Assembly (NCBI GenBank): GCA_026770025.1
Contig: JAMXDE010000004.1
Coordinates: 3,149,501 to 3,213,500 of the forward strand
DNA length: 64,000 nt
Direction: 5' to 3'
Source of the DNA: Craspedostauros australis
Lineage: Eukaryota > Bacillariophyta > Bacillariophyceae > Mastogloiales > Achnanthaceae
The stretch's first letter is position 1. Each line of letters begins with the position of its first letter. Below are positions 17,935-60,900 of this stretch, piece by piece. The translations under genes and the position numbers were made by a program. The notes beneath the pieces were generated by a model. The model was given only the letters and a program-made list of their open reading frames with translations. It did no database searches and was not told the origin of the DNA.

Positions 17935-19952
17935 CGTCCATAGGCAGCAGGGGATCATTCGCAGCTCCACGACAAGTCAACCATCCATGGCCGCACCATC
18001 CAATCCACAGCGATTGTCGATGTGCAGCAGGAGATCATTCGCAGCTCCATGACAAGTCAACCATCTGCAACCGCACCATCCAATCCACAGTGATTGTCGA
18101 TAGGCAGGAGATCATTCGCAGCTCCACGACAAGTCAACCATCTGCAACCGCACCATCCAATCCACAGTGATTGTCGATGTGCAGGAGATCATTCGCAGCT
18201 CCACGACAAGTCAACCATCCATGGCCGCACCATCCAATCCACAGCGATTGTCGATAGGCAGGAGATCATTCGCAGCTCCATGACAAGTCAACCATCTGCA
18301 ACCGCACCATCCAATCCACAGTGATTGTCGATAGGCAGGAGATCATTCGCAGCTCCACGACAAGTCAACCATCTGCAACCGCACCATCCAATCCACAGTG
18401 ATTGTTGATGTGCAGGAGATCATTCGCAGCTCCACGACAAGTCAACCATCTGCAACCGCACCATCCAATCCACAGTGATTGTCGATGTGCAGGAGATCAT
18501 TCGCAGCTCCACGACAAGTCAACCATCCATGGCCGCACCATCCAATCCACAGCGATTGTCGATAGGCAGGAGATCATTCGCAGCTCCATGACAAGTCAAC
18601 CATCTGCAACCGCACCATCCAATCCACAGTGATTGTCGATGTGCAGGAGATCATTTGCAACTCCACGACAAGTCAACCATCCATGGCCGCACCATCCAAT
18701 CCACAGCGATTGTCGATGTGCAGCAGGAGATCATTCGCAGCTCCATGACAAGTCAACCATCTGCAACCGCACCATCCAATCCACAGTGATTGTCGATAGG
18801 CAGGAGATCATTCGCAGCTCCACGACAAGTCAACCATCCATGGCCGCACCATCCAATCCACAGCGATTGTCGATGTGCAGGAGATCATTTGCGACTCCAC
18901 GACAAGTCAACCATCCATGGCCGCACCATCCAATCCACAGCGATTGTCGATGTGCAGCAGGAGATCATTCGCAGCTCCACGACAAGTCAACCATCTGCAA
19001 CCGCACCATCCAATCCACAGTGATTGTTGATGTGCAGCAGGAGATCATTCGCAGCTCCACGACAAGTCAACCATCCATGGCCGCACCATCCAATCCACTG
19101 CGATTGTCGATGTGCAGCAGGAGATCATTCGCGACTCCACGACAAGTCAACCATCCATGGCCGCACCATCCAATCCACAGTGATTGTTGATGTGCAGCAG
19201 GAGATCATTCGCAGCTCCATGACAAGTCAACCATCCATGGCCGCACCATCCAATCCACTGCGATTGTCGATGTGCAGCAGGAGATCATTCGCAGCTCCAC
19301 GACAAGTCAACCATCCATGGCCGCACCATCCAATCCACAGCGATTGTCGATAGGCAGGAGATCATTCGCAGCTCCACGACAAGTCAACCATCCATGGCCG
19401 CACCATCCAATCCACAGTGATTGTCGATAGGCAGGAGATCATTCGCAGCTCCACGACAAGTCAACCATCCATGGCCGCACCATCCAATCCACAGCGATTG
19501 TCGATGTGCAGGAGATCATTTGCGACTCCACGACAAGTCAACCATCCATGGCCGCACCATCCAATCCACAGCGATTGTCGATGTGCAGCAGGAGATCATT
19601 CGCAGCTCCACGACAAGTCAACCATCTGCAACCGCACCATCCAATCCACAGTGATTGTTGATGTGCAGCAGGAGATCATTCGCAGCTCCACGACAAGTCA
19701 ACCATCCATGGCCGCACCATCCAATCCACTGCGATTGTCGATGTGCAGCAGGAGATCATTCGCAGCTCCACGACAAGTCAACCATCCATGGCCGCACCAT
19801 CCAATCCACAGCGATTGTCGATAGGCAGGAGATCATTCGCAGCTCCACGACAAGTCAACCATCCATGGCCGCACCATCCAATCCACAGTGATTGTCGATA
19901 GGCAGGAGATCATTCGCAGCTCCACGACAAGTCAACCATCTGCAACCGCAAC
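17935..19952. repeat. satellite array, ~26 units of 77-80 bp, inside the transposon
   Basis: Each unit contains GATCATTCGCAGCTCC, GACAAGTCAACCATC and CCAATCCACAG. Two main variants alternate (CCATGGCCGC versus TGCAACCGC), and the unit link is either GATAGGCAG or GATGTGCAGCAG. Higher-order copies exist: a segment at 18790 recurs at 19421 (offset 631 bp), and one at 18094 recurs at 18402 (offset 308 bp). The open frames through the array reflect the repeat and are not taken as genes. The array lies just past the 3' end of the transposase gene. Confidence 0.93.
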
Positions 19953-32932: not shown

Positions 32933-34066
32933 CTACAGTTCATCCTTTCGTGACAATGCAGCGGGTTCTCCCGCCGAAATGGAAAGCGTCTCCACGTCCT
33001 CCAACATCTTGTTGGTGGTGTACGCAAGGACTCCAGTGGTTGTCAAGTTCAAGCTTTCCTTGACGGAGACCAACGTCTCTGCTTCCTTTTCAAATGCGAA
33101 CAGTGTTTCTTGAGCCTTCAGGTTGGCCTCGGTGATGAGCACATTCGCTTCAGTCTCTGCAATGTCCAGGATCCTTTGCGCCTCCTGCTCAGCGGCGAGG
33201 AACTCGGTCCGGGCCTTCGTGATCTCCTGCTTGCGTTGTGTCCGAGCAAGCTCGATGTCTTCCTCCGCGGACTGCTTCTTCGAGATGGCGTCGTCGTACT
33301 CTATTGGCAGCTCCACATTGCGAAGTTGTAGCGAGATGGCCTCGGCGAAAACGCCAAAGTCGTTCGGGTCTTGTGGATCGCCACCAAGCTTCGAGCGAAG
33401 ATTCGCTTCCATCGTCGACTGGATCTCCCCGCGCTTGTTCTGGAAGTTGGAGATGAAGAATTCAGAGCATGAATGCTGGACCGAGCTCTGCCCCGCCGCT
33501 TCGACGATATTGGCCCACTTGCCAAAGTCGCGATACCGAATGACGGCATCGTACAGGTTCTCTTGCTTGATGAGGTACTGGAATGTCACGGAGAACTCAA
33601 CTCGGAGACCATCTCTCGAGATGCAGGCTCCTTCCTGATCGGCGGTGACGAACGTCGAGGGGAACTTGATGAACTTGAATCCCGGAGGACCAGCATGCAA
33701 CCCTCCCGACTGAGATGCATCGTTCAAGATCTTTGAGTACTTGGCGTACTTCAGGCCGTACTCGGTGTTGTCGACCTTCTTGAATGAGGTGGCGAGTACG
33801 GCGATTAGCGTGATCACGAGCGCGAGCACGAACACGCAGCATGAGATGCGTCTGGCTCGGATCATCCCGGGAGTGAGTTCACGACGTTCGGTCTGGCGGG
33901 ACCAACGTGAAGGGCTTGTACTTCGTTGGTGGTCCTTGCTTGAAGGATCTGCCGCACCTGCCGCGTCCTCCACATCTCCCTCGTCCATCAATGGCGTGGC
34001 GGACTTGAACGAAGCATTGAAGCCGATGTCGCCATCGCTCTCTTCACCCTTGGAAGATCGAGTCAT
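32933..34066 (-). CDS. SPFH/PHB-domain membrane protein ending in KDEL
   Basis: The product is 377 aa. I chose the ATG at 34066 because the upstream open frame is basic low-complexity. A polar N-terminus of ~75 residues precedes one membrane segment (ISCCVFVLALVITLIAVLAT). The PHB-like domain follows (VDNTEYGLKYAKYSKI onward, ~95-240), then a long charged helix rich in Ala, Glu and Gln (~250-340), typical of SPFH proteins that form ring scaffolds. The last four residues are KDEL, the ER retrieval signal, so the domain probably faces the ER lumen, as in erlins. Function is inferred as a membrane-microdomain scaffold. It is divergently arranged with a second SPFH gene. Confidence 0.85.
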   Translation of the reverse strand: MTRSSKGEESDGDIGFNASFKSATPLMDEGDVEDAAGAADPSSKDHQRSTSPSRWSRQTERRELTPGMIRARRISCCVFVLALVITLIAVLATSFKKVDNTEYGLKYAKYSKILNDASQSGGLHAGPPGFKFIKFPSTFVTADQEGACISRDGLRVEFSVTFQYLIKQENLYDAVIRYRDFGKWANIVEAAGQSSVQHSCSEFFISNFQNKRGEIQSTMEANLRSKLGGDPQDPNDFGVFAEAISLQLRNVELPIEYDDAISKKQSAEEDIELARTQRKQEITKARTEFLAAEQEAQRILDIAETEANVLITEANLKAQETLFAFEKEAETLVSVKESLNLTTTGVLAYTTNKMLEDVETLSISAGEPAALSRKDEL

Positions 34067-34811
34067 GTTGTAATTGCTGCGGCTTTGTTTGATGCAGTTG
34101 TAGTAGTTGTTGGTGTCGTTGGGTTTGTTGGATTTGGTGGAGTGTCGAGCACGAGTTGTGTTTGGCTCACTCTTTGATTTTATGACACAAGATGTGAAGT
34201 GCCCAACAGAGATGAGACGCAGTGTGGTCGCAGGCCTGTCGGTGTCGCACCGAGGGGCGCGAGGAGATCTTTTTGTTTGGCGCATCTGCAATTCAGGTTT
34301 CAGTCGTGACACCGTGTTTGCAAATCGGAATTTCGCGGAATTGGTGGCGTGTTTGTGCTCGTCTGGATGTCGCGGATGTCGCTTCAGACAAATGCACAAT
34401 GAGATTTCGCGATGGACCTGTCGTCTTTGTGTCGTATCAATGACACGACATCACGTTTCGAGTCGTGACATCAACCAACGGGAATGAAACGCAGAACGCA
34501 ACCACGAGCCACGAGCGCGAATGAAAAGATTCGACTCCAAACACGGCAGAACAAGCCAAACACGCAACCCAAACGAGTATCCAAACGAGCAACTAACAAG
34601 CACAAGAACACAGCCCCACAGATCATCAAGAGCAGCACAACCAGCAATCGAGAATAGATAGCAGCAGACATTGATCGGCATCTCATAAAAAGAACTTCAA
34701 AGCACTCGCACTTCCAACGTGCATATCACACACCACACATCACACACCACACATCACACATCAAAGCACTCGCACTTCCAACGTACATATCATATCACAA
34801 CAACAACAACC
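34067..34811. promoter_or_regulatory. shared upstream region of the divergent SPFH pair
   Basis: These 745 bp lie between two divergent ATGs. Near the plus-strand gene a 32-bp segment (34697-34728, starting TCAAAGCACTCGCACTTCCA) is repeated at 34761-34792 with one mismatch. The copies are separated by a CACAC(CA) simple run. Co-regulation is inferred only from layout. Confidence 0.4.
34697..34792 (+). repeat. 32-bp direct duplication in the 5' leader
   Basis: Two copies, 64 bp apart and differing at one base, flank an ACACC-rich spacer just upstream of the ATG at 34812. Confidence 0.85.
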
Positions 34812-35753
34812 ATGGCAAAGGATGGTAGAAATTGCGGCATCTGCCTGCTGCTGACCGGACTGCTCCTCTTCGTCATCCTGTTGCCCCTCAGTTTCGGATA
34901 CATCGACTACTACGAATTCGGTATCAGCAAGCGCAAGTCCACTGGCACCATATTCTACGACAAGGTGTACACGCGCGGGCGCTACCATCTTGGCCCGGAC
35001 AAGACCTTCATCACGTACCAAGCCGACGCGCATTCCGAGTCATTCGAGGAGCTTGCTGTATTTTCAGCGGGAGGCGGCAACGAGTCCATCGGCCTTGCCT
35101 TCGAGGTGGATGTCGACTTCACCTACTTCCTCATCGAGGACGAGATCATTGACCTACACAGAGAGCTCGCGCGAGGATACAAGGATGTGGTTGTGTCACG
35201 TGCCAAGGACGCCATCAAGAACGCCGCAATCTCTGTCACCTTCAATGAGTACTTCCAAGAGCGTAGGTTGGTGGAACGCAAGTTCCGCGATGCAGTGCGA
35301 AACCGATGGAACGAAAAGCCGTCGTTGCATTGCACGTTGGATCAGTTCCATTTGGGACGCATCCGCATCCCCGAGAATGTGGCGCAGAAGCAATTGGAAG
35401 GCCGCATCCAGAACGAACGCAACGACATGGAGGAGTTCCTGCAGCTGGCGGAGCTAGAACGCGAGGAGACCAGCGTACAGGTGAATAGGATCGAGCTGGA
35501 GAAGAGCGTCACGTTGAGGACGGCAAATGCCAATGCATCGCTCATCCGATCCAAGGCACAGTCGGAGGCGGAACGGATCAAGTCCGAGGCACAGATCAAC
35601 GGGACCCGGCTGGTCTATTCTCGTGCCGGCATCACAACCCAAGACCACATGACCGCTTACACGTACATTCGGACATTGAAGAACCGGCCTGATCTGCGCA
35701 TGCATCTCAGCTATGCCTCGCCAGACACAGTCGTCCGAACTCAAGGCTTGTAG
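34812..35753 (+). CDS. SPFH/PHB-domain membrane protein
   Basis: The product is 313 aa. The ATG sits in an ACCATGG context, and the frame upstream is only His/Thr low-complexity. A short N-terminus precedes one membrane segment (CLLLTGLLLFVILLPLSFGY, ~11-30). The PHB-like domain follows (YYEFGISKRKSTGTIFYDKV onward, ~33-200), then a charged alpha-helical region (~205-270, ELEREETSVQVNRIELEK). It is probably a distant paralogue of the divergent neighbour: both have membrane segment, EYG/YEFG entry, PHB domain and coiled coil. It has no KDEL, so it may sit in a different compartment. Confidence 0.82.
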   Translation: MAKDGRNCGICLLLTGLLLFVILLPLSFGYIDYYEFGISKRKSTGTIFYDKVYTRGRYHLGPDKTFITYQADAHSESFEELAVFSAGGGNESIGLAFEVDVDFTYFLIEDEIIDLHRELARGYKDVVVSRAKDAIKNAAISVTFNEYFQERRLVERKFRDAVRNRWNEKPSLHCTLDQFHLGRIRIPENVAQKQLEGRIQNERNDMEEFLQLAELEREETSVQVNRIELEKSVTLRTANANASLIRSKAQSEAERIKSEAQINGTRLVYSRAGITTQDHMTAYTYIRTLKNRPDLRMHLSYASPDTVVRTQGL

Positions 35754-36087: not shown

Positions 36088-36202
36088 ATGATTGTAGCAA
36101 TTATGAGACTGATCTATCCAAGCCACCATGCTATTGCCAGTGCGACGGCAATTGCAGTGACATGCTTCATTTGCTTTTGCAACACAGCTGCGGCCACTCC
36201 CA

Positions 36203-36240
<38 letters not shown>

Positions 36241-37533
36241 CTATCATCGTCATGTCTGGCTTTCCATCCAGGTTCATTCCCCTCGGCGTTCAGCCATGAT
36301 CGTTCTCTGACAACGACACGTCGGTCCGCAAGATCGCTTCAGGCGTCATCTCCGAGTCTCTGCAATTGGCATGAACTCAAATCGAGGCCAACCGCATTGG
36401 TAGCAACGATACTAAGATTGGGGTTGACGCCGGATAGTGATGACACCAGAGTGTATAATAACACGCCAGCAGAAGCTCTCTCGGACAAGGTCGATACAAA
36501 CCAGCAATGCACAGCCACAGGCATGTGCACATGCCCTGGAATCTTCGACGTCATCGCAACGTCCAACATGACAGCGATAACAGAAAGCACCGAAGCGCAA
36601 CGAGTGTTTCACGGTCGGGGTGGGATGTATCGCGGGTGCGAGCATCTGGCGTTGGATTGGTTCCACCCTGTCTGGGTTCTGACGAGTTTTTCCACGCTGG
36701 AGGAAGATTCCATCCAATCAATCCAGTCAGCCTTGAAGGACCATTGTCATCGCCATGGATGTTGTTTGAACGAACATGCAGAGGTATCGTCGATTGAATT
36801 GGACAATACTGACGCAAACTATTCCAACGTGACATTGCCACCGATCACCGCAGACACGTTCAACTTCGTGTACCAATGCCGATCGACGGGTAGTTCAGCA
36901 GCATCCAATACGTTGCGGGAAGGAGCCGTGCCGAGACAGCACACTGTGACAGAGAATGGTCTGAAATACGAAGTCCGGTTGCTGCAAGGTCAGAATCAAG
37001 GCATATTCCTCGACATGGCCAATGGCCGGAGATGGGTGCAGGACAACGCCAACAATCAGATCGTGCTCAATTTGTTTGCGTACACCTGCGCGTTCTCGGT
37101 CGCGGCACTTGCGGGTGGTGCGTACCAGGTTGTGAACATGGACATGGCGAAGGGCGCGTTGAAGATCGGGCAGCGCAATCATGAGATGAATCACGACGCA
37201 TTCTGCGAGGCTGCTGCCAGTGGTGACAATGGAGCGAACGATCCGTACCACTCCAGCCAGGTCAAGTTCTTTGCGCACGACATCTTCAAGTCATGGGGAA
37301 AGATCAAGAGGTTGGGTCCGTACGATCGCATCCTCGTGGACCCGCCCAGCTTCCAAAAGGGTTCCTTCGTGGCAAAGAAGGATTACGGCAAGGTGATTCG
37401 GAGATTGCCATCGTTGCTATTGCCTTCCACGAACAGCAAGGCCATGCTGTGTCTGAATGCGCCGGAACTATCGGTCACATTCTTGCAGCAAGGCACGGGA
37501 ATTCCGCTGAAACTGGTGTCCGGATGTTCGTGA
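36088..37533 (+). CDS. RlmI-like SAM-dependent methyltransferase, interrupted by a DNA element
   Basis: Host sequence runs from the ATG at 36088 to 37488 (467 codons). The frame then enters the inserted element and stops at 37533 after 14 extra residues. An N-terminal signal-like segment (IASATAIAVTCFICFCNTAAA) and Ser-rich stretch could be an organelle leader. HGRGGMYRGCEHLALDW and NGLKYEVRLLQGQNQGIFLD follow. The Rossmann core has LNLFAYTCAFSVAALAGGA (SAM-binding) and ILVDPPSFQKGSF, then CLNAPEL. These are hallmarks of the RlmI/RlmK-type class I rRNA methyltransferases. The expected C-terminal strand region is missing here and is found at 42061-42231. An alternative ATG is at 36103. Confidence 0.85.
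36203..36243 (+). repeat. (ATC)n tract coding for poly-Ser
   Basis: A trinucleotide run in frame in the methyltransferase gene, just after the signal-like segment, gives about 12 consecutive Ser. Confidence 0.85.
37489..37515 (+). repeat. left 27-bp TIR
   Basis: It starts CAAGGCACGGG and ends GAAACTG. It is the exact reverse complement of 42031-42057. Confidence 0.92.
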
Positions 37534-37650
37534 TCAGTCCCCGATTCAATCGTGTTTAGGACAATTAATCTTTGGTCGATCTTGTCAATCCCACATCGCT
37601 GAATTTTTTGTCACCGTTGAATTACCGTTATAAGCGTTATTCATCAACGA

Positions 37651-37867
37651 AGTACTTTCAACGTTTGTTGAGTACTTTCAACGTTTGTTCAGTACTTTCA
37701 ACGTTTGTTGAGTACTTTCAACGTTTGTTGAGTACTTTCAACGTTTGTTCAGTACTTTCAACGTTTGTACAGTACTTTCAACGTTTGTACAGTACTTTCA
37801 ACGTTTGTTCAGTACTTTCAACGTTTGTTCAGTACTTTCAACATTTGTTGAGTACTTTCAAAGTTTC
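37651..37867. repeat. left subterminal array of a 20-bp unit (~11 copies)
   Basis: The unit is AGTACTTTCAACGTTTGTTG with variants ending TTC or TAC. Each unit contains the palindromes AGTACT and AACGTT. The same unit, in the same direction, forms the right array. Confidence 0.95.
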
Positions 37868-38088
37868 CCACCAGGCACTGCAACAACCCCGACTCGCAGA
37901 GACCACGCTGTTGCGGAGAGCATCCAAACACGAGTCAATCTGGCCAGAAAAAAAACGCAAAAACTCCACAACGAGTACAATCGGTTTGCAGAGCGAGTGG
38001 TGGAAAGTAGAGTAATGGTTGTTGTGCTGCTTCTCGCACTTCCTCCTCACTGACTTCCTTCTTCTTGACGTTCCCTGCGTCTTGATTG

Positions 38089-38175
38089 TATGATGGATGA
38101 TCAGCGATAGATAATCAGTGATAGATGATCAGTCATGGGCGATCAGTGATTGATGATCAGTGATGGAGGATGGAT
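38089..38175. repeat. imperfect ~15-bp tandem repeat
   Basis: Variants of GATGATCAGTGATAG are repeated about six times next to the decayed copia LTR. Confidence 0.75.
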
Positions 38176-38177
38176 GA

Positions 38178-41100
38178 TGACCAGTTAGCACACGCTTGAA
38201 ACGATGTTGAGGGTGACAACATCCAATGATTCAAATTATAAGGGTTATCGTGTAATGTGGGCTTGTCATTCAATGCTCTATACTCGTACGCTCAGGCGAT
38301 ACCCGAGTTTGCACCGTAATCCCGTTTAAACCGTTTCATACATATTGCTGCTTGGTCCCCTCGATTCGCTGTGGCTTTGCTGACTGTCGGATTGTCACAA
38401 TTTCGCTTCTTTTGGTATGTACCTGCTGCATGCCCCATGCATGGGCACCACAGGGCGCTCATCCCATCCACCATTGCTTGGACCCATGGTCGACCATCCA
38501 CAGGTACTGTCGTGCAGTCTGTTCGTTAAGAACAAGACTTGTTGTGCTTGGACTTCCATCTTGGCCCTGATTGTGGCTTTGTGAGCATGTTGGCGAGGTT
38601 CGATTCTGTAGGCTCATACGAGACCACCATCACACCTGTTGCACTGCATTTTTGTACGAAGTGGTATGCGATGGCTCTTGCTTTCTTTCATAGCTGTGAC
38701 TCTGGGAGTGAGGTGTTGTTCATGACGCTTTGATTGTCAACTCGCATGTCTGCCAGGCCGTCCATAGGGACGCCCATCATGCGCAGCTTATAGCGCATGC
38801 TGATGACAATCTCCATCACTGCCTTGAGCACGATGAATTTACTGCGGAACGTAGACGTTTCAATGCTGTTTTGTTTCTTGTTGAGCCATAGGATGAGTGA
38901 CAAGTTCAAGTACAGTAGAACCCCAGTGCGCGATCGTCGCGTCATGTGGTCACCAGCATGATCCGCATCAACAAAGCAAGTCATCTGGACTTCCTTACCT
39001 CGTGGTGGCGGCATGTCATTCGGTATCTGTTCGTGGGCATTGGCGTAGAAATTGCCCCAATCCGGTTGTGCCACAGTAGGCTTGTCAACATATGCATCAT
39101 CAAAGACAAGACGAGAGCGATCGTGTGAGTTGAGGTATGCAATTACATGAAAGAGAGCATTCAGGTGGCCAGTTCGGGATGCAGCACAGTACAATGGCAT
39201 CATTGAGGTTTCACAGCATATATCAATGCGACCCAGTTCAACAGTCCATCGCAGGATGCCAATGAGCTGTTGGTAGAACAACATCTCCTCATTGTCACAC
39301 AGTGGCGATGCATCCAGCTTGGGTCTGTATCTACTCGGTAGCATGGTGGGTGCCTTCATCTTGAGGCGCCCATCATGGTTGGTATGCCATTTCGTCACAA
39401 TCTTCAGGGCGGCTCTGATGTATTCTTGTATCGGCGCTGCTGTTCTGATCAGGCGGGGAGCGTGGCCCAAAATGGCCATCCGTGTCCTCATGTGCGCGTT
39501 TGGAGGGACTGCCTCTGCCCATCGACATCACACCACGATGCTTGTCACGTGTATTGCGCAATTTCAAGGCGCGTGCCTATTGGATGGATGACATGATGGC
39601 CTATTCTTCTGGTAGGTAGTGGCAATCGGTGATGATGATATTTGGGTCATGTTGTTTGGCCCATCCTTGACCTCCGCGTCCTCCTTTGTTGTTGCGGTTG
39701 TTGTATCTACCGCGGCTGGCGTTGTTCCGTCCCATGGACAATGCCTGACACATTGGTGTTGCTGCCTGTTTGCGGTCGATCACTTCGCTGAGAGCATTCA
39801 CGGTGGATGCGAAGCTGGAACGGATGCTTTCATTCAGCATGATGGCATCACATGCGTTGTGCAAATGCGGCACGCGGATGCTGCACATGAGGTGACGGAC
39901 CTTGGCGTTGTCCACAAGCGGTTCACCACAGTTGGCCATGTCTTCGAATGCAGAGTTCAGACGCTGCATGTATGTCTTGAACATGGAGTTGCGTGACTTG
40001 CCGTCATAGTAGGGGTTGTTGATGGTGCTGGACGCTGCTGCCTTCGTTCTGACCTTGTACGAATCACCACGATAGTGCTCTTGGAGGGTGAGGAATGTGG
40101 CGCATCCATCTCTGGATCGCTCGCTACCCTGTACCCAGTTCCATGTGAGTCTGCTATGTTTGACATGATGGATGACTTGTCACATGGTGGCATTGTCCAC
40201 CCTGTACTTGAGACCTGTCAACATGGCCCTGTCAATGATCTTGCCCTTCATCAATGGCACACCGACCAGAGTGTGCACCGCTGGTGTTCTGTCTTCTTGC
40301 TTGTAGGGGTTTGCGCGAATGATGTAGGAAACCAGGATGTTGGTAGCCCCAAGTGTGTTTTCATTTTAGTTGGTGATGTCCTTGAGGGTCTCGCAGACGA
40401 TATCCACATGGGTGAGAGGTTCAGGAAGGTCCACGGGTGGTGAGTCCTTGGTACGGAAATCTTCCTTGAAGAGGGACCACAAGCTGTTGAGGTGTTCCAT
40501 GGACTCTTCGGCGGCGGAGAAGGGGCGTTGGATATGATGGAAGTGGAAGCGCACATTTCACAGCTTGCGGAGTTTCAACTCATGTACCCAGCCAATGGTG
40601 ACACCTGGGTCCTTGATGTGAGTGGGTGTGGTCAAACGGGTTCCTGACATGTGTGCAGGGTTGTCGATCAAACCACTTCCCTTATGGATGCAATGACATA
40701 GCTTCTGCAGGTTGTTGTTGGTGAACATGAGCAGGTCGTCGAATGTCGTCAGTCCCTGTTCGTTGAGCGCAGTGCCAATGTCGGCCTTGGCAAAGCCCAT
40801 GGTGTTGGTGAGGTAGTTACAAATCTTGTTGGCATTAGTCAACATGGTGGTGTTTGTTTCAATCATTGTGTATGTGTATGGGAGTGTGAGAAGAGGAAAT
40901 GAGAAGGACAGGATACACAACAGTGACAGAAACCACGCTAGGACAAAACCTGTCCCGTTGTGTGTGAGGTTTCAGCATGTACATGTGTCGGTGTCTTGAG
41001 AAGCATAGATGTGGCAACAAGGCACACAATCTAGCACTCAGCTTGAGCTTGTGTCTCAGTAGGGGTTCCGCCTGATCTGCGGTCGGTGCGTCCACGTTAG

Positions 41101-41485
41101 TTTGCCATCCGCACCACGCAACAGCAAACAGTGGGATCTCATCTCCCTGGTACCAATCACAATGTACCAGCACACCATGGGCAGAGGGGATGCAGCATGA
41201 TTCAAGCCGTGCTGGCTTCGTGGCGGTCCACCTTCGGATGGGGTCCCAGTATTATCATCGCCCCTTCAGGCGGTCCCTATGTGCTTGCTTGGGCTCGCAT
41301 GAGCGTACGAGCATGGTGATCTAAGTTGGCACACACATAAAACAATGTTGAGGGTGGCAACATCCAATGATTAAAATTATAAGGGTTAACAGGTCGTGTG
41401 GACCTGTCATGCAATGCTCTATACTCGTATGGTTAGGCGATACCCGTGTTCGTACAGAAACCCCGTGTTAACCGTTTCACACGTA
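38178..41485 (-). mobile_element. old, heavily decayed copia element
   Basis: This is a minus-strand fossil with short flanking LTR-like repeats (about 38178-38342 and 41317-41482; ends approximate) that clearly align but have diverged strongly. Recognisable parts are an RNase H/late pol segment (38.7-39.5 kb), a Gly/Arg-rich gag end (39.6-40.0 kb) and an N-terminal gag segment (40.5-40.9 kb). Much of pol is not recognisable, and many breaks are present. LTR divergence indicates an old insertion. It lies inside the 4.6-kb DNA element. Confidence 0.75.
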
Positions 41486-41636
41486 TCCCTATTTGATGAA
41501 GTACGAAGGACGGTTGTAATTCTGATGGAGCAGAACACGCAGGAAGACAGCCGCCCTCGCCACGAGTGTGTTGTGATGAAGAAATTTGAATCATGTTTGT
41601 AACGGCACGAATCGCTTCATTGAAGAGAATTGTTCT

Positions 41637-41884
41637 CAGCGTTTGTCAAGTACTTTCAACGTTTGTTGAGTACTTTCAGCGTTTGTTGAGTACTTTCAAC
41701 GTTTGTTAAGTACTTTCAACGTTTGTTGAGTACTTTCAACGTTTGTTGAGTACTTTCAACGTTTGTTCAGTACTTTCAACGTTTGTTCAGTACTTTCAAC
41801 GTTTGTTCAGTACTTTCAACGTTTGTTCAGTACTTTCAACGTTTGTTCAGTACTTTCAACGTTTGTTCAGTACTTTCAACGTTT
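41637..41884. repeat. right subterminal array of a 20-bp unit (~12 copies)
   Basis: It has the same AGTACTTTCAACGTTTGTTG unit as the left array, in direct orientation. It ends about 145 bp before the right TIR. Confidence 0.95.
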
Positions 41885-42030
41885 CTTGTCGCGATAGCTG
41901 GTGTTCGGATTTCAAACATATAACGGTTATATACGTTACTGTTGTGGATATACTCCGAGTATTGAGTCGTTCCAATCGAGTCACACGCGAAGTTCTTGAA
42001 TAGTCAGAGTGGTCGAATCCGAACGTGTGA

Positions 42031-42057
42031 CAGTTTCAGCGGAATTCCCGTGCCTTG
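42031..42057 (-). repeat. right 27-bp TIR
   Basis: It is the exact reverse complement of 37489-37515 and is followed by the duplicated CAG. Confidence 0.92.
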
Positions 42058-42060
42058 CAG

Positions 42061-42231
42061 GAATTGGTGCGGGAGGAGGCACCGGAACTTGAATTTGCGG
42101 GACAGATTGAAAATCCATTGTCATTTCTTTCGATTGATCCGGACAGAGCGCTGAAGGTGCTGTTGTACCAAATGAAAGCTGACTGTATTGACGACGAAGA
42201 CTACGAACACAGCAGCAACAACTCCGAATGA
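42061..42231 (+). pseudogene. detached C-terminal part of the methyltransferase gene
   Basis: The first codon after the duplicated CAG continues the methyltransferase frame for 56 codons and a TGA (42229-42231). It reads ELVREEAPELEFAGQIENPL, then SFLSIDPDRALKVLLYQM. RlmI-type enzymes end with just such a segment: an acidic helix after CLNAPEL...FLQ, then a (D)xERxLKVL strand. Without the insertion the protein would be 523 aa. It is not reached by the current upstream frame unless the element is removed from the transcript. Confidence 0.85.
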
Positions 42232-50417: not shown

Positions 50418-53400
50418 ATGAGCAAGGAAGAGGAATTGAAAGACATCCCTCTGTCCAATCCGGCTATCAAGAGAGAAGAAGGTGCGAGTGAGACTCCACC
50501 ACGAGAAGAGAAGGAAGCAGCCGCGGCTACTGTCCTATCAGGCGCAAACGCAAGCGCGATCGACGAGACCGAAGAAGAACGGTCTGCAAGACTACACCGT
50601 AAGGAGAAGAGGATTCTCAAGGCGGTCAAGCAAGAGGAGACTGGTGTGACGAAGAGCATTCGCACAGCCAAACAGGGTGGGAAAAGTGAGATACCACCAG
50701 GAGGAGAATTTGTGAGCAAATCAATCCTCGCGAAACAACAAGCGAAAATCGAAGAATCGGCAACACAGAAACCGACGGAAATCAAGGGCGCGAGCGCACC
50801 AACGACGAAACAACGAACCAACATGGTGACATCAGCCAACATGAACAAGCGACGCATCAAGGCGCCGATGTTCAGCGGTGAGCAGGAAGACTACAGCGCA
50901 TGGGAGTCCCAAGCGAAAGCATACGCTCGTGCACAGAAGACGAGAGATGTGATGTTGGGCAAGACCAAGGTGCCAACAGTGAGTGAGATCGCGGCAGCCG
51001 CCGGCGATGACAAGGAAGCGATGGAAGAGATATACGAGCTGGGATGCGACTGCTTCAGTGATCTGATCCTTATGATGGATGCAGAGAAAGGAAAGGGCAA
51101 GCAGGCCATCCAGTACATCAACCAATGCATCTCCGACGACTACCCTGAAGGAGACGCACACGCAGCGTGGAACGTTCTCGCGGAGAAGTTCCGACCATCC
51201 GATGCGGTGACGAAGATCAAACTCAAGCGCCAATTCAACAACGAAAAGATGAAGAGAGACACGGACCCCGACATCTACATCACGCAACTCGAGAGTCTAC
51301 GATCGCGTCTCCACGATGTCAAGTATGAGATCACGGACGAGGAAATGATCATGCAAATCCTCAGCACGGTGAGCAACGAATACAGAACTCACATCGTGAA
51401 CTTCCAACACCAACTCACGTTCAATCCGGAACTGGTTACCATCAACACGATCAGAGGAGTACTCCGTACTGCATACGCCACCCACAGAGGAGGCAAAGCA
51501 TACGTCGACGACTTCCAAGACAGCAACACGAAGAGCAACGACACCGGCTTCACAAGCACCGGTAACTTCAAGGGTACTTGTCACAACTGTGGCGTGTATG
51601 GTCATAGATCCGCCGATTGTCCAGAACGCAAGAAATCGAACAACAAGAAAAACAACAAGATGAATGGAAAGCGCAACAAAGGAAGCGGCTTCAAGGGCAA
51701 GTGTAACTACTGCGGCATCTTCGGACATCGCGAGGCGGAGTGCCGAAAGAAGAAGTTCAACGAGAGCAAGAAGAACAACGAACAAGCCAACGCGGCTACG
51801 GAAGGACACGACAAGAGCGGGCACGAGATGGTACTCTCAGCGCAAGACATGCCGCTCTGCATGTTGGTGTCCGACAACTACATCGAAGACTCCTTCTTCG
51901 ATAACTTCGAGTGCGTCGGAAGTGACGACGAAGTACAGGACGATGAGATCGTCCCGGAGTGGCTCAGCGAGGAGCCCATCATCCACGAGGTGGATCCAAG
52001 ACATGAAGTGAGCTACGAATGCTGCTTCAACGCGCACGACCTGATCGGTTCATACGGCGACGAAGCTGAGATGGACAACGAGGCCAACGATAGCGACATC
52101 GAAGAGGCCATGAGCGATGACGACGACGACACCAACGAGGACGGTGTACATGAAGACAACGAGGCGAACCGTGCCGCGGCGCCGCCTCCTCCAGTGGCGG
52201 GGAACAACAGATCGGGCATCTTTGATGAAGATGACAGCGACGAATCCGAAGACGGCAATCATCCAGACGACAGCTTCAATCCAAACGAGCGTGTCGTCTA
52301 CCCAGGGAACATCGACTTCCCACCTATTGAGGATCCCAACAGGTCCAACTACCTCCTCCGTCACAGCACCATCCCAAATGCAACAGCAACAGCATTAACA
52401 ATCCAAAAGCAGCTCATCTTTGACGCCGTAATGGAAGCGGGAATGCGATTGTTCCCAGGAACCACACGAGGAGCACTCATGCCAATATGGGTGAACATGA
52501 TGGGATCCATCCTATCCGAGCACTTCGAATCAATCGAAGAGATCCTTGTCAATGCGATCATCATCCACCGCATACTGGAAGCGAACAACTCGGAAACGAT
52601 CCCAGAGACGAATCTGCATTACATCCTTGGAGGATGCATGCGCGTGCTCTTACGCGAGCGATCACGCGTCCACCCATATGATCCAGCCACAGGATCGCAT
52701 CGGAACAGTACGATTCCATCGGACTATGCGCAACTACCCGATTACATGGATGATGAGGAGCACCACAATCCATACAACGAAGATGGAGTCCACGAAGACA
52801 ACGATGACGGCAGCTTCAACGACGAGATAGCTGCGGCAGCCGTGGAACAGCTCCACGAGCTGAGCACCAGATACAAGGACAAGGTCAACAAGGACACCTG
52901 GCTCGCCGACAGCGGAGCTTCGTGTCACATCGTCAACTCGGACGCCACTCTATTCAACGTGCGGCACATCAAGTCCTTCGTCCAAGTGGGAGACAGCACG
53001 AAGCTGGACTCTCCCAAGATGGGATCCATTCGCTTGAAGGTCAAGCAGCGAGACAACACTGGCCACGTCATCCGGCTTGATGACGTGAAGTACACACCGA
53101 AAATGGCGGTGAACCTTTTCTCCACGAATAAGGCTCTGTACAACAGTTACCAGCTTGGTAACAACGGCATTCTGATGGACATCATCAACGGATCCGGAAC
53201 GAAGATCGTGTTCGATCGAGTCTTCCCTACATCCAACGGATTCATCACGGGAGTGCAGATGCATCCCATCATGCCGACATACGACGACAAGGCTTGCACA
53301 GCCATCGTCAAGAATCCATCCAAGGAGATCAGCGCGGTGAACCTGCACCGAATGCTCGGCCACGCGCCACTCGAGACCATGAAGCGGACGGCCGCTCAGT

Positions 53401-56400
53401 ATGGATGGAAGATAATCGGCGAGATGCCGGTATGTCGCGACTGCGCGGTCGCAAACGCAAGAGTGAAGAATATTCCGAAGGCAACCATTCCGAGAGCAAC
53501 TCGCCGTGGCGAACGGCTCTTCATTGACATTAGTTACACTAAACACATAAGCTTCGGAGATAAACGCTACTGGACCCTGATCGTGGACGACTGCACGGAT
53601 CACTGCTGGAGTTTCTTTCTCAAGAACAAGAGTGATCAACCAGGGTACATCAAACGATTCGTTCAAACGATCAAGTCACAGACTGGTGACCAACAGATCA
53701 TCTTCAGAGGTGACAACAGCGGAGAGAACAAGTCCACGCAGGATATTCTCATCGATGCAGGACTCAACGTGAAATTCGAATTCACGGCATCGAACACGCC
53801 GCAACAGAACGGCAGAGTGGAACGCAAGTTCGCGTACCTCTACACCAAGATCCGCTCCATGCTCAACGGAGCACAGCTCGACGAAGAGTATAGGCATGGC
53901 CTGTGGGCAGCAGCTGCTAGCACTGCCACCGCCATCGCCAATATCACCGTAGCGAAGAACCAGAAGGAGTCACCACATCGACAATTCTTCAGCAACGATC
54001 CACCATATGCGGATGCACTCCGCACGTTTGGAGAGGTGGGAGTTGTGAAGACTACCTACGGCGGGATCACCGCCAAACTCAAGAACAGAGGAGAAGAGAT
54101 GGTGTTCATTGGATATACACACCAACACGCATCAGGGGTCTACAACATGTACAGACCATCGACCAAGTCACTCATCTGTTCACGGGACATCAAGTGGCTC
54201 AACCAATCATACGGACAGTTCCGTGGCTGGGCACCAGCACCGAACATATCCAACGAAACAGGAACAACGGACGCAGACGGCTTCACAACCATTGGACGGA
54301 AGGGAGCAACGCCAAGGACAGCAACGCGTCAAACATCGGAAGCGAAGAAAGTATCTTTCGCTGACAGCAACAGGTACTACATCCTATCAGACAGCGATGA
54401 TGAGGATAATGAGGACGACGGAGTAGTGACTCAACTAATCCAAAATAACGAGGAGGATCGGAGCGAGTCCAATCATGAGGATGACGAAATCCTACCCTCC
54501 GGCGACGAAGCCGATGATGAGACAGGCGTCATCCCTCCAAATACACCAGCGAGGTCTACACATGACACACCATCCAGACCTCCACCGAGCAAACCAAGCA
54601 AGCGTGACATAGCTAGAAAGGAGAGGATCCGACGTCACGAAGCACAAGGTAGGAAGGGAGAAACTAATCCCAAGTCAACTGCAGGGAAGAGTATTCCCAG
54701 AGCTCTGCGTGACCTCGCAGACTTCAACGAACGAGGTCGAAAGGAAGAAGGCTATGAGAGCGATCCATCATCCAATGAGGCGAGTGACGAACTCAGCGAC
54801 GAGATGATCGACGATTCCAACAACGAAACTACAGATGACGAAGAAATCGAAGACAAAGATGAAGAGATCGAGATCACTCACCATAGCACAACTGGATTAT
54901 ACGGGATGAATGCAATCATCACCGAGAGACCAGCGATCGACATCGGATTGTCGATGCAGGACGAGAACAAGGAATCAGAGAAGCACATCGAACCTACAAC
55001 GTTCGACGGAGCCTTCAATCACCCAGATCCTATCCATCGGAAGGGATATCGAGCAACCATCAAGAAGGAGTTCGACTCCATGGATACACGCAAGGTGTAC
55101 AGCAAGATCAAACGAGACGCCATCCCACGCGGCCGCAGATGCTGCAAGTGCAAATGGGTCTTCAAGCTAAAGCGTGACGGCACACATCGAGCACGGCTCG
55201 TTGCATGTGGCTATTCACAAGTCGCAGGAGTAGACTTCCAAGAGCATTACTCACCTGTCATCCATGACGTGACCTATCGGGTCATGATGGTGATCATGCT
55301 AATCAAGAAGATGGACTGCCCACTCGTCGATGTCGTAACAGCATTCCTACAAGGAGACCTCGACGAGGAGATCTACATGAACTGCCCCAACGGAATGGAT
55401 CATCAACCAGACGAAGCCCTGACCCTACACAAGCCAATCTACGGACTTGTGCAGAGCGCCAGGCAATGGTTCAAGATGTTGGTATCGACCCTCAAGAATA
55501 TCAACTTCGAACAGAGCGCAGCAGACCCGTGCCTGTTCTACAGGAAGACGAACGAAGGAAGCATGATCGTGGCCATCTACGTGGACGATTGCTTCTGTTG
55601 CGGAGACTCCAAGGCACTGGAGACATTCCTGAAGGACATCCAAGGCAGCAAATTCAAGGTGACAATCGAGCGCGGACTCGGAGACTACCTCAGCTGCAAC
55701 ATCGAACTGAACCATGACAAGACTAGAGCGACATTGCGTCAACCACATCTCATCCGACACCTCATCGAAGAGTTCGGAACCAAGGTTGAGAAGATGCAAC
55801 GCTATGGAACACCGGGAACCCCGGGCCAAATCATCGTACGACCATCCGAAGATAACGGACTACAGAAGGTCGGACCGGAAGAACATGCCGAATACCGCCG
55901 AGGCGTTGGTATGCTACTCTTCCTCATCAAGCACTCGCGACCAGATATCGCGAACCCTGTGAGGGAACTCTCCAAGGTATTGATCGGGCCCACCAAGGCC
56001 GCAATGAAGGAGATGTATCGGATCATCAAGTATGTGATCGATACAAAGGACTATGGATTGAAGATCCATCCAGCACGTCCAGACGACGACGGCTGGGACA
56101 TGGAGCTCTTCTGCGATAGCGAATATGCAGGAGACAAGAACACAAGAATCAGCGTAGGGGGATTCATTCTATACCTGTGCAAGGTACCAATCCTTTCGCG
56201 ATCCAAAGCACAGAAGGCCGTCACACTCAGCTCATCCGAAGCAGAATACGTTGCCCTTTCCAAAGCGGCAAAGGAGATCTTCTTCGTCGTGCAGCTACTC
56301 GAAAGTGTGGGCGTCCTAGTGAAGACACCGATCAAGGTCCGTGTGGACAACATCGGAGCGATCTTCATTGCCAAGAACCCATCAACATCCCAACGATCGC

Positions 56401-56576
56401 GGCACATCGACGTGCGCCATCACTACGTGAGGAACATGGTAATCAACAAAACCATCGAAATCATTTTCGTCAAATCCGAGCAGAACACAAGCGACGGATT
56501 CACCAAGAACATCAAGGCCGACTTACAACGCGAACATGAGAAGTCATACCTTGACACATCGAGAACATTCGAATGA
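50418..56576 (+). CDS. copia gag-pol polyprotein
   Basis: The frame encodes 2052 aa from an ATG 82 bp after the 5' LTR. In order: a charged N-terminus and gag (~130-380), two CCHC zinc knuckles (CHNCGVYGHRSADC and CNYCGIFGHREAEC), and an acidic linker. The protease motif WLADSGASCH is near base 52900 and the integrase spans 53.3-54.1 kb (TPQQNGRVERKFAYL). An acidic spacer follows, then reverse transcriptase (AIYVDDCFCCG, near 55.58 kb) and RNase H ending at SEQNTSDGFTKNIKAD. It is longer than typical copia polyproteins because of an extra ~400-residue acidic region between the knuckles and the protease. Confidence 0.92.
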   Translation: MSKEEELKDIPLSNPAIKREEGASETPPREEKEAAAATVLSGANASAIDETEEERSARLHRKEKRILKAVKQEETGVTKSIRTAKQGGKSEIPPGGEFVSKSILAKQQAKIEESATQKPTEIKGASAPTTKQRTNMVTSANMNKRRIKAPMFSGEQEDYSAWESQAKAYARAQKTRDVMLGKTKVPTVSEIAAAAGDDKEAMEEIYELGCDCFSDLILMMDAEKGKGKQAIQYINQCISDDYPEGDAHAAWNVLAEKFRPSDAVTKIKLKRQFNNEKMKRDTDPDIYITQLESLRSRLHDVKYEITDEEMIMQILSTVSNEYRTHIVNFQHQLTFNPELVTINTIRGVLRTAYATHRGGKAYVDDFQDSNTKSNDTGFTSTGNFKGTCHNCGVYGHRSADCPERKKSNNKKNNKMNGKRNKGSGFKGKCNYCGIFGHREAECRKKKFNESKKNNEQANAATEGHDKSGHEMVLSAQDMPLCMLVSDNYIEDSFFDNFECVGSDDEVQDDEIVPEWLSEEPIIHEVDPRHEVSYECCFNAHDLIGSYGDEAEMDNEANDSDIEEAMSDDDDDTNEDGVHEDNEANRAAAPPPPVAGNNRSGIFDEDDSDESEDGNHPDDSFNPNERVVYPGNIDFPPIEDPNRSNYLLRHSTIPNATATALTIQKQLIFDAVMEAGMRLFPGTTRGALMPIWVNMMGSILSEHFESIEEILVNAIIIHRILEANNSETIPETNLHYILGGCMRVLLRERSRVHPYDPATGSHRNSTIPSDYAQLPDYMDDEEHHNPYNEDGVHEDNDDGSFNDEIAAAAVEQLHELSTRYKDKVNKDTWLADSGASCHIVNSDATLFNVRHIKSFVQVGDSTKLDSPKMGSIRLKVKQRDNTGHVIRLDDVKYTPKMAVNLFSTNKALYNSYQLGNNGILMDIINGSGTKIVFDRVFPTSNGFITGVQMHPIMPTYDDKACTAIVKNPSKEISAVNLHRMLGHAPLETMKRTAAQYGWKIIGEMPVCRDCAVANARVKNIPKATIPRATRRGERLFIDISYTKHISFGDKRYWTLIVDDCTDHCWSFFLKNKSDQPGYIKRFVQTIKSQTGDQQIIFRGDNSGENKSTQDILIDAGLNVKFEFTASNTPQQNGRVERKFAYLYTKIRSMLNGAQLDEEYRHGLWAAAASTATAIANITVAKNQKESPHRQFFSNDPPYADALRTFGEVGVVKTTYGGITAKLKNRGEEMVFIGYTHQHASGVYNMYRPSTKSLICSRDIKWLNQSYGQFRGWAPAPNISNETGTTDADGFTTIGRKGATPRTATRQTSEAKKVSFADSNRYYILSDSDDEDNEDDGVVTQLIQNNEEDRSESNHEDDEILPSGDEADDETGVIPPNTPARSTHDTPSRPPPSKPSKRDIARKERIRRHEAQGRKGETNPKSTAGKSIPRALRDLADFNERGRKEEGYESDPSSNEASDELSDEMIDDSNNETTDDEEIEDKDEEIEITHHSTTGLYGMNAIITERPAIDIGLSMQDENKESEKHIEPTTFDGAFNHPDPIHRKGYRATIKKEFDSMDTRKVYSKIKRDAIPRGRRCCKCKWVFKLKRDGTHRARLVACGYSQVAGVDFQEHYSPVIHDVTYRVMMVIMLIKKMDCPLVDVVTAFLQGDLDEEIYMNCPNGMDHQPDEALTLHKPIYGLVQSARQWFKMLVSTLKNINFEQSAADPCLFYRKTNEGSMIVAIYVDDCFCCGDSKALETFLKDIQGSKFKVTIERGLGDYLSCNIELNHDKTRATLRQPHLIRHLIEEFGTKVEKMQRYGTPGTPGQIIVRPSEDNGLQKVGPEEHAEYRRGVGMLLFLIKHSRPDIANPVRELSKVLIGPTKAAMKEMYRIIKYVIDTKDYGLKIHPARPDDDGWDMELFCDSEYAGDKNTRISVGGFILYLCKVPILSRSKAQKAVTLSSSEAEYVALSKAAKEIFFVVQLLESVGVLVKTPIKVRVDNIGAIFIAKNPSTSQRSRHIDVRHHYVRNMVINKTIEIIFVKSEQNTSDGFTKNIKADLQREHEKSYLDTSRTFE

Positions 56577-57975: not shown

Positions 57976-60900
57976 CGTTTCGAAACGTTTAGATTGAAAT
58001 CCTACGTTTCACCCCGCACCATCAAGCCATCATCCACCATCATCATCATGAGTACCATCAACGCCAAAACCGACCGCCTCCCGGTGGTCTACTTCGACGG
58101 CAAGAAGGAGAACTGGAAGTTCTGGCTGGCCAAGTTCCTCTCTCGTGCTAACCGCAAGGGTTACAGAGACATGTTCTTGATGGCCTACTCTGAGGTGGAA
58201 GTGAAAGCTCCTTCTGAGGTTACCGAGAGCCTGGTCCCAACCATCAAGACCGAGGCAGGTATCAAGCTCAAACCCGGCACCAAGGCGAGCGGCAAGGCAA
58301 GCGCCAAACCGAGCGCCGCGGACCTGGCCGAGTACAAGGAAGCGATGGCGAAGTACGCCTACGAAGAACTGACCTTGGCTATTAGCCATGATTCGAAGGA
58401 AGGCAAAGTTGCCTTCGAGGCGGTGTGGGGATGCAAGAGCATGCTGAACGGGGGAGGAGACCCTCGTGCAGCTTGGGTGGCTCTTGAGCGCATCTACGAG
58501 CAGCGCACTGCGCCTATGAAGGCAAAGTTGCTAGCGGAGCTCAACGGGATGCGGCTGAAGAAGGGAGAGAATCCGGATCTCTTCCTGACGGACATGGAGG
58601 TCCTTCGAAACAGGCTGATCGACCTGAAGGTGATCGTCGACGTGGAGCAGTTCAACATGCTCGTCCTCAACGCACTCGGCCGCGAGTACGAGATGGATGT
58701 GAAGCTGCTCGAACTCAAGTTCCTAGGAAAGGAACGAGAGATGACTGTGGGCGACATCCGCGAAGCCGTGAGCCTCACCTACGACCGCCACCATCTCAAA
58801 CATGGTTATAAGCGCGCAGGCAACAACGGTAGCGAAGAGTTCGCACTGATTGGAGTTGGCCAGTTCAAGGGAAACTGTCGCAACTGTGGCGCCTACGGGC
58901 ACAAGAAGGCGGACTGTCGTGCGCCAGCCAAGGGAGGCAACAACAACAAGAGAGGCGGTGGTGCCAAGAAACAAGGCCACAACACCAACGCCAAAGGCGG
59001 ACTCAAGAAGGTGCAGTTCGACGGCAAGTGCAACTACTGCGGAAAGGCAGGGCACAAGATCCTTCAATGCTTTAAGCTGAAAGCAGCGATGAAAGACGCC
59101 GAAAGTGCCAATGTGGCAATGGATGGCGACGACGCGATGGATGATATGGCGCTCATCATCGCGGACGGAGACTTCGTCGAAATCAACGATCATAACGAGA
59201 TTGTGATCGATAGCGACGACGAGGACGACATCGTGGAGTTCATGGGAACATTCCCTCCGGCTGCAAGAGCCGAATCGCCAACCAACGACAGCAAGGTCGA
59301 TATCCTCGAGCTCATGAGTGAAGACCTGATTGAGTACGACGTCATCGACGAGATCATCGCGGACAATGAAGAGATCGCGATGCCTGGAATGGACTTCGAC
59401 GACGCGCCGACTGCGCATGGGAGAGGAACGACAGTGGCTCGCACTGGTAACCCCATCGATCGCTTCTTGCGTGAAGAGATCGACCGCGCATGTGAGAGAA
59501 GCAGAATGGACGCATGGTGCCCACTCTGTCTCACTCGCGGAGCGATGTACTCATGGTGCACGGATTGCACCGAGTATAATCCATTCAAGATCCGCACCCT
59601 CTGGGGAGATGACACTTTCCCACCGAGCACTGAAGCCGAGATTGCTCGCCGTCGCGAGATCCTTGGTCGATTCGGATCAGTGGAGGACGCCGTGAGGGTC
59701 TCCCTATCCAACGTATTGGAGGCGAACGATGTGCGCTTCAATGTGGCACTTCTATGCTACGACGTGAGAAAGGCGACCATCGACGCAGGAGCACAGTGTA
59801 TGGGCGCTCGTGAGCTCTACTACATGCTCACGCAAATCGGGATAAACGGAATGTTCGATGTGTCATGCAAGCTCGTGATGGTTAATGAGCTACTTGAAGA
59901 AAGGCAACTTCCACTCCTCCCAAATCACCTGATCGCGAGAATGAGCAAAATGTCAGCTCAGCGACTCATGTGGATGTACAACTGGGAAGACACCGAAGTA
60001 CGCGACGGAATAGAATGTCGCGAGTTGCCAAAGAAGGGACCCCGTGTGGGGAGTCCGCAATACCGACTGGAGATGGCGGACCACATCGCGATGGCTACTC
60101 GAGGCTATGACTTGGCCATGGTGGTCGGGGATCTCGAGGCGAGCAGCAGCAGCCGCAAGCTCATCGCGCCAGACCAACATGAAGCAAACACATGGTTGGG
60201 CGACACAGGTGCATCATGCCACCTCACGAATAACGATGAGGGGATGACTAATGTGCGCCTCTCTAATTTTTCGGTGAAGGTCGGAAGCGGTAAATTCTTG
60301 CGTGCCACCAAGGTCGGAGATTTACGCATGAAAGTGTTGCAGAAGGATGGCAAGAGCGCCATCATCATCCTGAAGGGAGTGAGGTACGTGCCAAAGCTTT
60401 GGGTGAATCTCCTCAGCATCGGCAAAGCACTCCAGAATGGGTTCGACATCAGTAACAAAGGTGTCATCATCGCATTGGAGAAGAACGGACAGCGCATCCG
60501 GTTTGACCGGATCATGGCAACGCACAGTGGCTTTGTGTTGGGTGTGAACATGGTTCCAGTCCCCAAAGACGAAGAGATGGCGAACATCGGATTCGACACA
60601 AAGAAGCCCATGGATGTGAATAAGTTGCATAAGATGCTAGGCCACGTTGACTCTTACACGATCTCCAGGACGGCGAGACACTATGGATGGAACGTCACAG
60701 GAACGCTCAATCCCTGCGAGGACTGCGCAATCGGGAAGGCAAGACAAAAAAGGCCTGACCAAAACTCTTCAACCACGAGCGAAGCGAGTTGGCGAACGAC
60801 TCTTCATGGATACCTCGAGTGTCCAAGCGACAAGCTTCGGTCACGGAAAGTACTGGCTGCTGGTCATCGATGACTACAGTGATCACTGCTGGAGCTATTT

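Follow-up and report, generated by a model that had tools for sequence, protein, structure and literature searches.

A probable PIF/Harbinger-like transposon with Ty1/copia-like cargo in one of the paralogous copies of a methyltransferase gene of Craspedostauros australis

The stretch of Craspedostauros australis DNA analysed here is 64,000 nucleotides long (contig JAMXDE010000004.1, positions 3,149,501 to 3,213,500) and is referred to below, as a whole, as the window. It holds a methyltransferase gene whose last 56 codons are separated from the preceding 462 by a 4569-bp segment with the structure of a DNA transposon. The segment begins and ends with terminal inverted repeats (TIRs), is bordered on both outer sides by a CAG in the position of a target site duplication (TSD), and encloses a decayed retrotransposon-like sequence between two repeats resembling long terminal repeats (LTRs). 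From left to right, the features are as follows.

36103..37488, + strand: 5' part of the methyltransferase gene, 462 codons, ending with the left CAG; PF10672, E=1e-69 (36088-37530); the paralog L022 begins at the equivalent ATG
37486..37488, + strand: left TSD, CAG; a single CAG stands in both paralogous empty sites
37489..42057, + strand: putative non-autonomous PIF/Harbinger-like element of 4569 bp, of the PIF/Harbinger-ISL2EU-Spy (PHIS) superfamily; missing from both paralogs
37489..37515, + strand: left TIR, 27 bp, from repeat comparison
37516..37533, + strand: end of the read-through frame, with GT directly 3' of the TIR (possible, weak splice donor), then a stop at 37531-37533
37651..37866, + strand: left subterminal array, 20-bp unit repeated 10.8 times, from a tandem-repeat search
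38183..38354, - strand: LTR-like repeat, left copy; ends from a repeat finder, so that the exact LTR ends are approximate; the C46 element has a single copy
38355..41323, - strand: predicted decayed Ty1/copia interior with minus-strand frames (RNase H-like frame at 38688-39491), from tblastn
41324..41495, - strand: LTR-like repeat, right copy, from the repeat finder
41636..41884, + strand: right subterminal array, the same 20-bp unit as on the left repeated 12.4 times, from repeat searches
42031..42057, - strand: right TIR, 27 bp, from repeat comparison
42058..42060, + strand: right TSD, CAG, from the sequence and both paralogous empty sites
42061..42231, + strand: C-terminal 56 codons and stop of the methyltransferase gene, severed by the element; completes PF10672 and is identical to the nearer paralog

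A sequence-only reading of the window had claimed perfect 27-bp inverted repeats at 37489 and 42031 with a CAG outside each, and both are present: the arms are perfect over 27 bp, nested in a 33-bp pair at 94%, and the CAGs occupy 37486-37488 and 42058-42060. The upstream host frame passes through the left TIR and acquires 14 foreign residues (QGTGIPLKLVSGCS) before the stop at 37531-37533, so that its ending with 14 element-encoded residues, another claim of that reading, can be read directly. After the right CAG, the frame 42061-42231 reads ELVREEAPELEF...HSSNNSE up to a stop codon at 42229-42231. The proposal that this is the missing C-terminus is borne out by the profile, which it completes, and by the paralogs, whose continuous frames it matches. 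The interrupted frame aligns with PF10672 (Methyltrans_SAM) only to profile position 249 of 286 (235.4 bits), whereas the joined 518-residue product of the window reaches position 285 of 286 (275.6 bits; cut-off 27) and the intact paralog position 285 (275.4 bits). The check on homologue C-termini that the earlier reading had suggested came out, by this profile comparison, in its favour. In phmmer comparisons with solved structures, all eight of the matches end before the C-terminus with or without the joined segment, and it is therefore the Pfam profile, together with the paralogs, that supports the C-terminus.

Two details of the earlier description needed adjustment. A joined product of 523 residues had been proposed, starting at 36088; the joining stands, while a length of 518 residues is more likely. 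Since the paralog L022 has an ATG only at the equivalent of 36103, and an ACG at the equivalent of 36088, the host frame probably begins at 36103. Likewise, the label 'RlmI-type' is right as far as the family goes and too specific beyond it. By its profile match, the window protein is a member of the PF10672 methyltransferase family, but the intact paralog stays below the NCBIfam equivalog cut-offs for both RlmI (58.4 against 712) and RlmK/L (75.9 against 466). The N-terminus of the methyltransferase resembles what we take to be a complex-plastid signal.

Evidence that the 4.6-kb segment is an insertion comes from two further copies of the flanking gene in the 74.8-Mb, 90-contig genome that was searched, namely C2:3216339-3217200 (98%), about 26 kb beyond the right end of the element, and the farther C2:1970839-1973024 (97%). 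Both, the only other copies found, carry TTCTTGCAGGAATTGGTG, which matches the junction predicted, has CAG once and lacks the element. The empty site that the sequence-only reading proposed to look for was found in this form, in paralogs of the same genome and not in alleles of another strain. When the window flanks are joined, they align through the junction in one piece with either copy: over 4700 bp with the nearer one (98.3%, gapless, 80 mismatches or 1.7%), and over 4866 bp with the farther one (95.4%, eight gap openings, 144 mismatches or 3.0%). The 56 C-terminal codons and the preceding CAG are identical between the window and the nearer copy. Synonymous divergence (dS) from the window gene is 0.027 for the nearer copy (343 codons) and 0.041 for the farther copy (516 codons), and the ratio of nonsynonymous to synonymous divergence (dN/dS) is about 0.4 in both comparisons. 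The farther copy (L022, C2:1.97 Mb) is a 516-residue open frame and the sole intact copy seen; the nearer copy (L023) is without the 5' part of the gene, its homology beginning at about window position 36627. This break in the nearer copy adjoins repeated sequence, in which two stretches separated by about 1.2 kb resemble each other.

The element is one of a family. A 25-bp core of the TIR has 58 genome matches at up to three mismatches against none for a reversed-pattern control; this, together with the exact empty site in two paralogs, rules out chance pairing of the arms. The family search used the left 595 bp of the element as query, and 40 of 51 candidates were scored, so that element numbers are lower bounds. 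It returned at least ten elements readable at both ends, to which the TIR pattern search added six more pairs, giving 16. Their ends make up 32 of the 58 TIR matches; the other 26 were left unpaired, including those of C70 and C49, which have one recognisable end each and were left out of the TSD counts, as was C43, with none within five mismatches. All 16 two-ended elements have an exact 3-bp TSD, which is CAG in seven, CTG in seven, CGG in one and TAG in one. The elements of the window, C13, C17 and C3 are each 4.57-4.59 kb long, and the last three, with flanks different from those in the window, differ from the window element by 0.8% (37-38 sites; 99.15-99.18% identity, gaps left out). Other members vary in size: 572 bp (C9), 1384 bp (C46), 7255 bp (C68), 7631 bp (C34), 11.3 kb (C7) and 15125 bp (C1). 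The subterminal arrays of the 20-bp unit AGTACTTTCAACGTTTGTTC, which in the window element run in the same direction at both ends and are not inverted, are common to most of the other elements compared.

Five same-ended elements encode one transposase or close variants of it. A frame in the C34 element matches DDE_Tnp_4 (PF13359; 3e-15, 56.6 bits, cut-off 24.8). A 177-residue stretch of this frame is found unchanged (100% identity) in C1 and C68, while C33 and C7 (2111750) have it at 93-94%; in each of the five elements (C1, C34, C68, C7 and C33) it is flanked by paired TIR matches. At 81% identity or more, the transposase occurs at no fewer than 13 loci (150 of 346 candidates scored), and no solved relatives of it were found at E <=1. 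Eleven of these 13 loci have a second frame, of 165 residues, no more than 4 kb from the transposase; in C1 and C11 the distance is 10 and 20 kb. None of four second-frame proteins scanned had a Pfam match above cut-off, and Myb/SANT was not found in one member (E <=1) or in three relatives (E <=5), in which the only matches were below cut-off: DUF3069 (0.0098), LRS4 (0.019), HTH_71 (0.098) and weaker ones. Beside Harbinger-type transposases, proteins of about 160 residues with a twice-repeated motif (W..S.A..L ... FR..L..LR; KLRWDGSEAQ ... FP...FR) could be read in 11 of 12 loci (L056-L067 etc.). As a separate observation, about 92 bp inside the window element (37918-38010) match at least 18 other places in the genome at 80-85% identity, and one of these, C13:112660-112753, adjoins a related transposase match.

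The element family fits the PHIS superfamily, because its ends, the 3-bp length of the TSD and the DDE_Tnp_4 transposase of same-ended elements agree. A second frame accompanying the transposase is a further feature of that superfamily seen here. CACTA/EnSpm elements also have a 3-bp TSD and subterminal repeats; they were set aside because the transposase here is DDE_Tnp_4 and the ends do not start with CACTA. By target site, with CWG in 14 of the 16 TSDs, the nearest published group would be NuwaI. In the available text of the NuwaI survey (PMC4482050), this PHIS group is described as occurring mainly in animals, and it shares with the present family a Harbinger-type DDE transposase, a 3-bp CWG TSD, two frames in the larger elements and paralogous empty sites. 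It differs in that its second frame has Myb/SANT, which was not detected in the four second-frame proteins scanned from this diatom-like alga, and in that two of the 16 TSDs here are not CWG. Among the titles listed in a literature search on NuwaI and CWG-targeting Harbinger elements, none concerns algae. The PIF/Harbinger-like MtPH elements of Medicago, as far as the consulted portion of PMC2213677 describes them, resemble the present family in their 3-bp TSD, deletion derivatives, subterminal tandem repeats, nested gypsy retrotransposons and paralogous empty loci. However, their repeat unit is 60 bp, with arrays opposed when present at both ends, as against a 20-bp unit in the same orientation in the window element. 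Further, while single gypsy elements nested in PIF/Harbinger elements are already published there, the retrotransposon-loaded form is found here in five elements at separate sites. In microalgae, seven potentially autonomous Harbinger families, some of them expressed, are described for Tisochrysis lutea (PMC5963040); that likeness is one of description, the seen part of the source being silent on TSD sequences, nested cargo and gene disruption.

The interior of the window element is, by its pair of LTR-like repeats and a copia-like RNase H frame, a Ty1/copia remnant. The direct repeats are 81% identical over 172 bp (82.8% over 163 bp) and enclose about 3 kb of broken minus-strand frames. In tblastn, the cargo frame is 35% identical to an open copia frame of the window at 4004-4696 (E=9e-42) and 41% identical to an open copia that lies within the C7 element (E=3e-65); a Pfam search of the decayed interior at 0.01 gave no match. 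Of ten elements, five (those of the window, C13, C17, C3 and C7) carry the cargo, at sites with differing flanks. The C46 element has one LTR-like repeat at the equivalent place, and no such repeat was found in the C9, C1, C34 and C68 elements. As the members of the LTR pair are 82.8% identical and the window element and its sisters differ by 0.8%, the copia insertion is older than the spread of the element, and it has been copied as a passenger of the DNA transposon. Elsewhere in the window, long Ty1/copia-like frames occur at 35-4903, 50418-56576 and 57994-63721; two are single open frames (1622 and 2052 residues) and the third consists of two overlapping frames.

Collectively, with a probability of roughly 90%, a PHIS-type non-autonomous DNA transposon has inserted in one of the copies that gene duplication had made of a methyltransferase gene; this copy is then most likely null, and the intact paralog would keep the function. 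The element would have entered by cut-and-paste insertion after codon 462, duplicating the CAG, with the transposase of a same-ended element acting in trans. The decayed copia would be inert cargo that had entered the ancestor of the element long before. The host frame would now yield a protein that lacks its last 56 residues and carries 14 foreign ones; a null copy is likely because those 56 residues complete the methyltransferase profile. Enzyme function would be retained by the paralog at C2:1.97 Mb. The retrotransposon within the element, the transposon family and the two other gene copies go beyond what the sequence-only reading contained, and its warning that single-frame gene calls would report a truncated enzyme and overlook the cause holds.

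Several points weigh against this interpretation. No transposase was recognised by Pfam in the three frames of the window element that were scanned, and it is for this reason that mobilisation by a transposase from another element is proposed. The null status of the window copy is something we infer from the lost residues. Two of the 16 TSDs (CGG and TAG) are not CWG, and BLAST with gaps puts the window element and its sisters at 96.3-99.0% alike. Dating of the insertion presumes like substitution rates in the element and the flanks. Finally, precise excision from both paralogs could take the place of one insertion, which is less likely for reasons given below.

An improbable alternative is that the element acts as an intron. 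The GT at 37516 would be the donor and the right TSD CAG (ending at 42060) the acceptor, which would leave a 27-nucleotide in-frame scar of nine residues, QGTGIPLKL, and restore the C-terminus. The GT stands right after the TIR, the 27 nucleotides are free of stops in frame, and the TSD supplies the AG; a GT directly 3' of the left 27-bp repeat is present in eight of ten elements. However, the other two, the transposase-bearing C34 and C68, have GC at the donor place, the donor context GTGTCC is presumably poor by the usual consensus, and further AGs lie slightly upstream in the right TIR (42032-42033 and 42038-42039). Only one of the 16 elements is within a recognised cellular coding frame; for ten of them the flanks judged extended to at most 1.4 kb, and for the other six to about 200 bp. 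The best frames spanning 13 other insertion sites (14 scanned) had no Pfam match above cut-off, the top sub-threshold one being CFEM (0.015), although short or unfamiliar exons could escape such a scan. The C35 element sits in a copia frame, and downstream of the C3 element there is a weak, sub-threshold PAP_fibrillin match.

DNA transposons that make introns, adding or removing codons, are published, and the accessible portion of that account (PMC9860276) offers a likeness in a TIR element with a TSD in a coding exon, an AG from the TSD and a frame that could persist. The window element, at 4.5 kb, is far longer than the median lengths of 30-654 nucleotides given there for introner families. 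Many copies, each the intron of a gene, were not found here, and an introner assignment is not supported. It is very unlikely that a Harbinger-type element with a retrotransposon fossil has become a new intron and that the enzyme survives with a nine-residue scar coded by the TIR. If it were so, CAG sites could be turned into introns by a CWG-targeting transposon in two reading frames out of three, since the remaining frame runs into a TGA within the TIR.

There is only a slim chance that the empty paralogs are excision products of an ancestor that held the element. Two independent perfect excisions would be required against one insertion. Further, the difference between the element and its sisters (0.8%) is smaller than that separating the window from the nearer (1.7%) or farther (3.0%) copy, as expected with the element the last to arrive; for this reason, and because only the window copy is occupied, the gene duplications probably preceded the insertion. 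That the whole 4.6 kb is a single LTR retrotransposon insertion with incidental TIRs can be dismissed, since although an LTR-flanked copia remnant is present, the 3-bp TSD and 27-bp TIRs lie outside the LTRs, the 572-bp C9 has TIRs and arrays without an LTR match, and the 1384-bp C46 has a single LTR.

Transposon insertion as proposed here would be a clear but ordinary gene disruption, with internal controls (TIRs, TSD, two empty paralogs and same-ended transposase elements) in one genome. It would give a diatom-like alga a Harbinger relative that targets CWG, beyond the mainly animal range of the NuwaI survey as far as seen (PMC4482050), and it illustrates a dead retrotransposon multiplied by a DNA transposon.

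Beside the methyltransferase gene lie two genes on opposite strands (32933-34399 and 34719-35753), the second encoding an SPFH/Band 7 protein, and this two-gene block (32933-35753) is also present at C2:1.97 Mb. The window further contains a tandem array at 17947-19940 with a 77-bp unit repeated 25.5 times (91% matches). Elsewhere in the assembly, C90 encodes a plastid-type RuBisCO large chain, whose best solved relatives are 7yk5, 5mz2, 5n9z, 5oya and 6ftl, which we take to be diatom RuBisCO enzymes.
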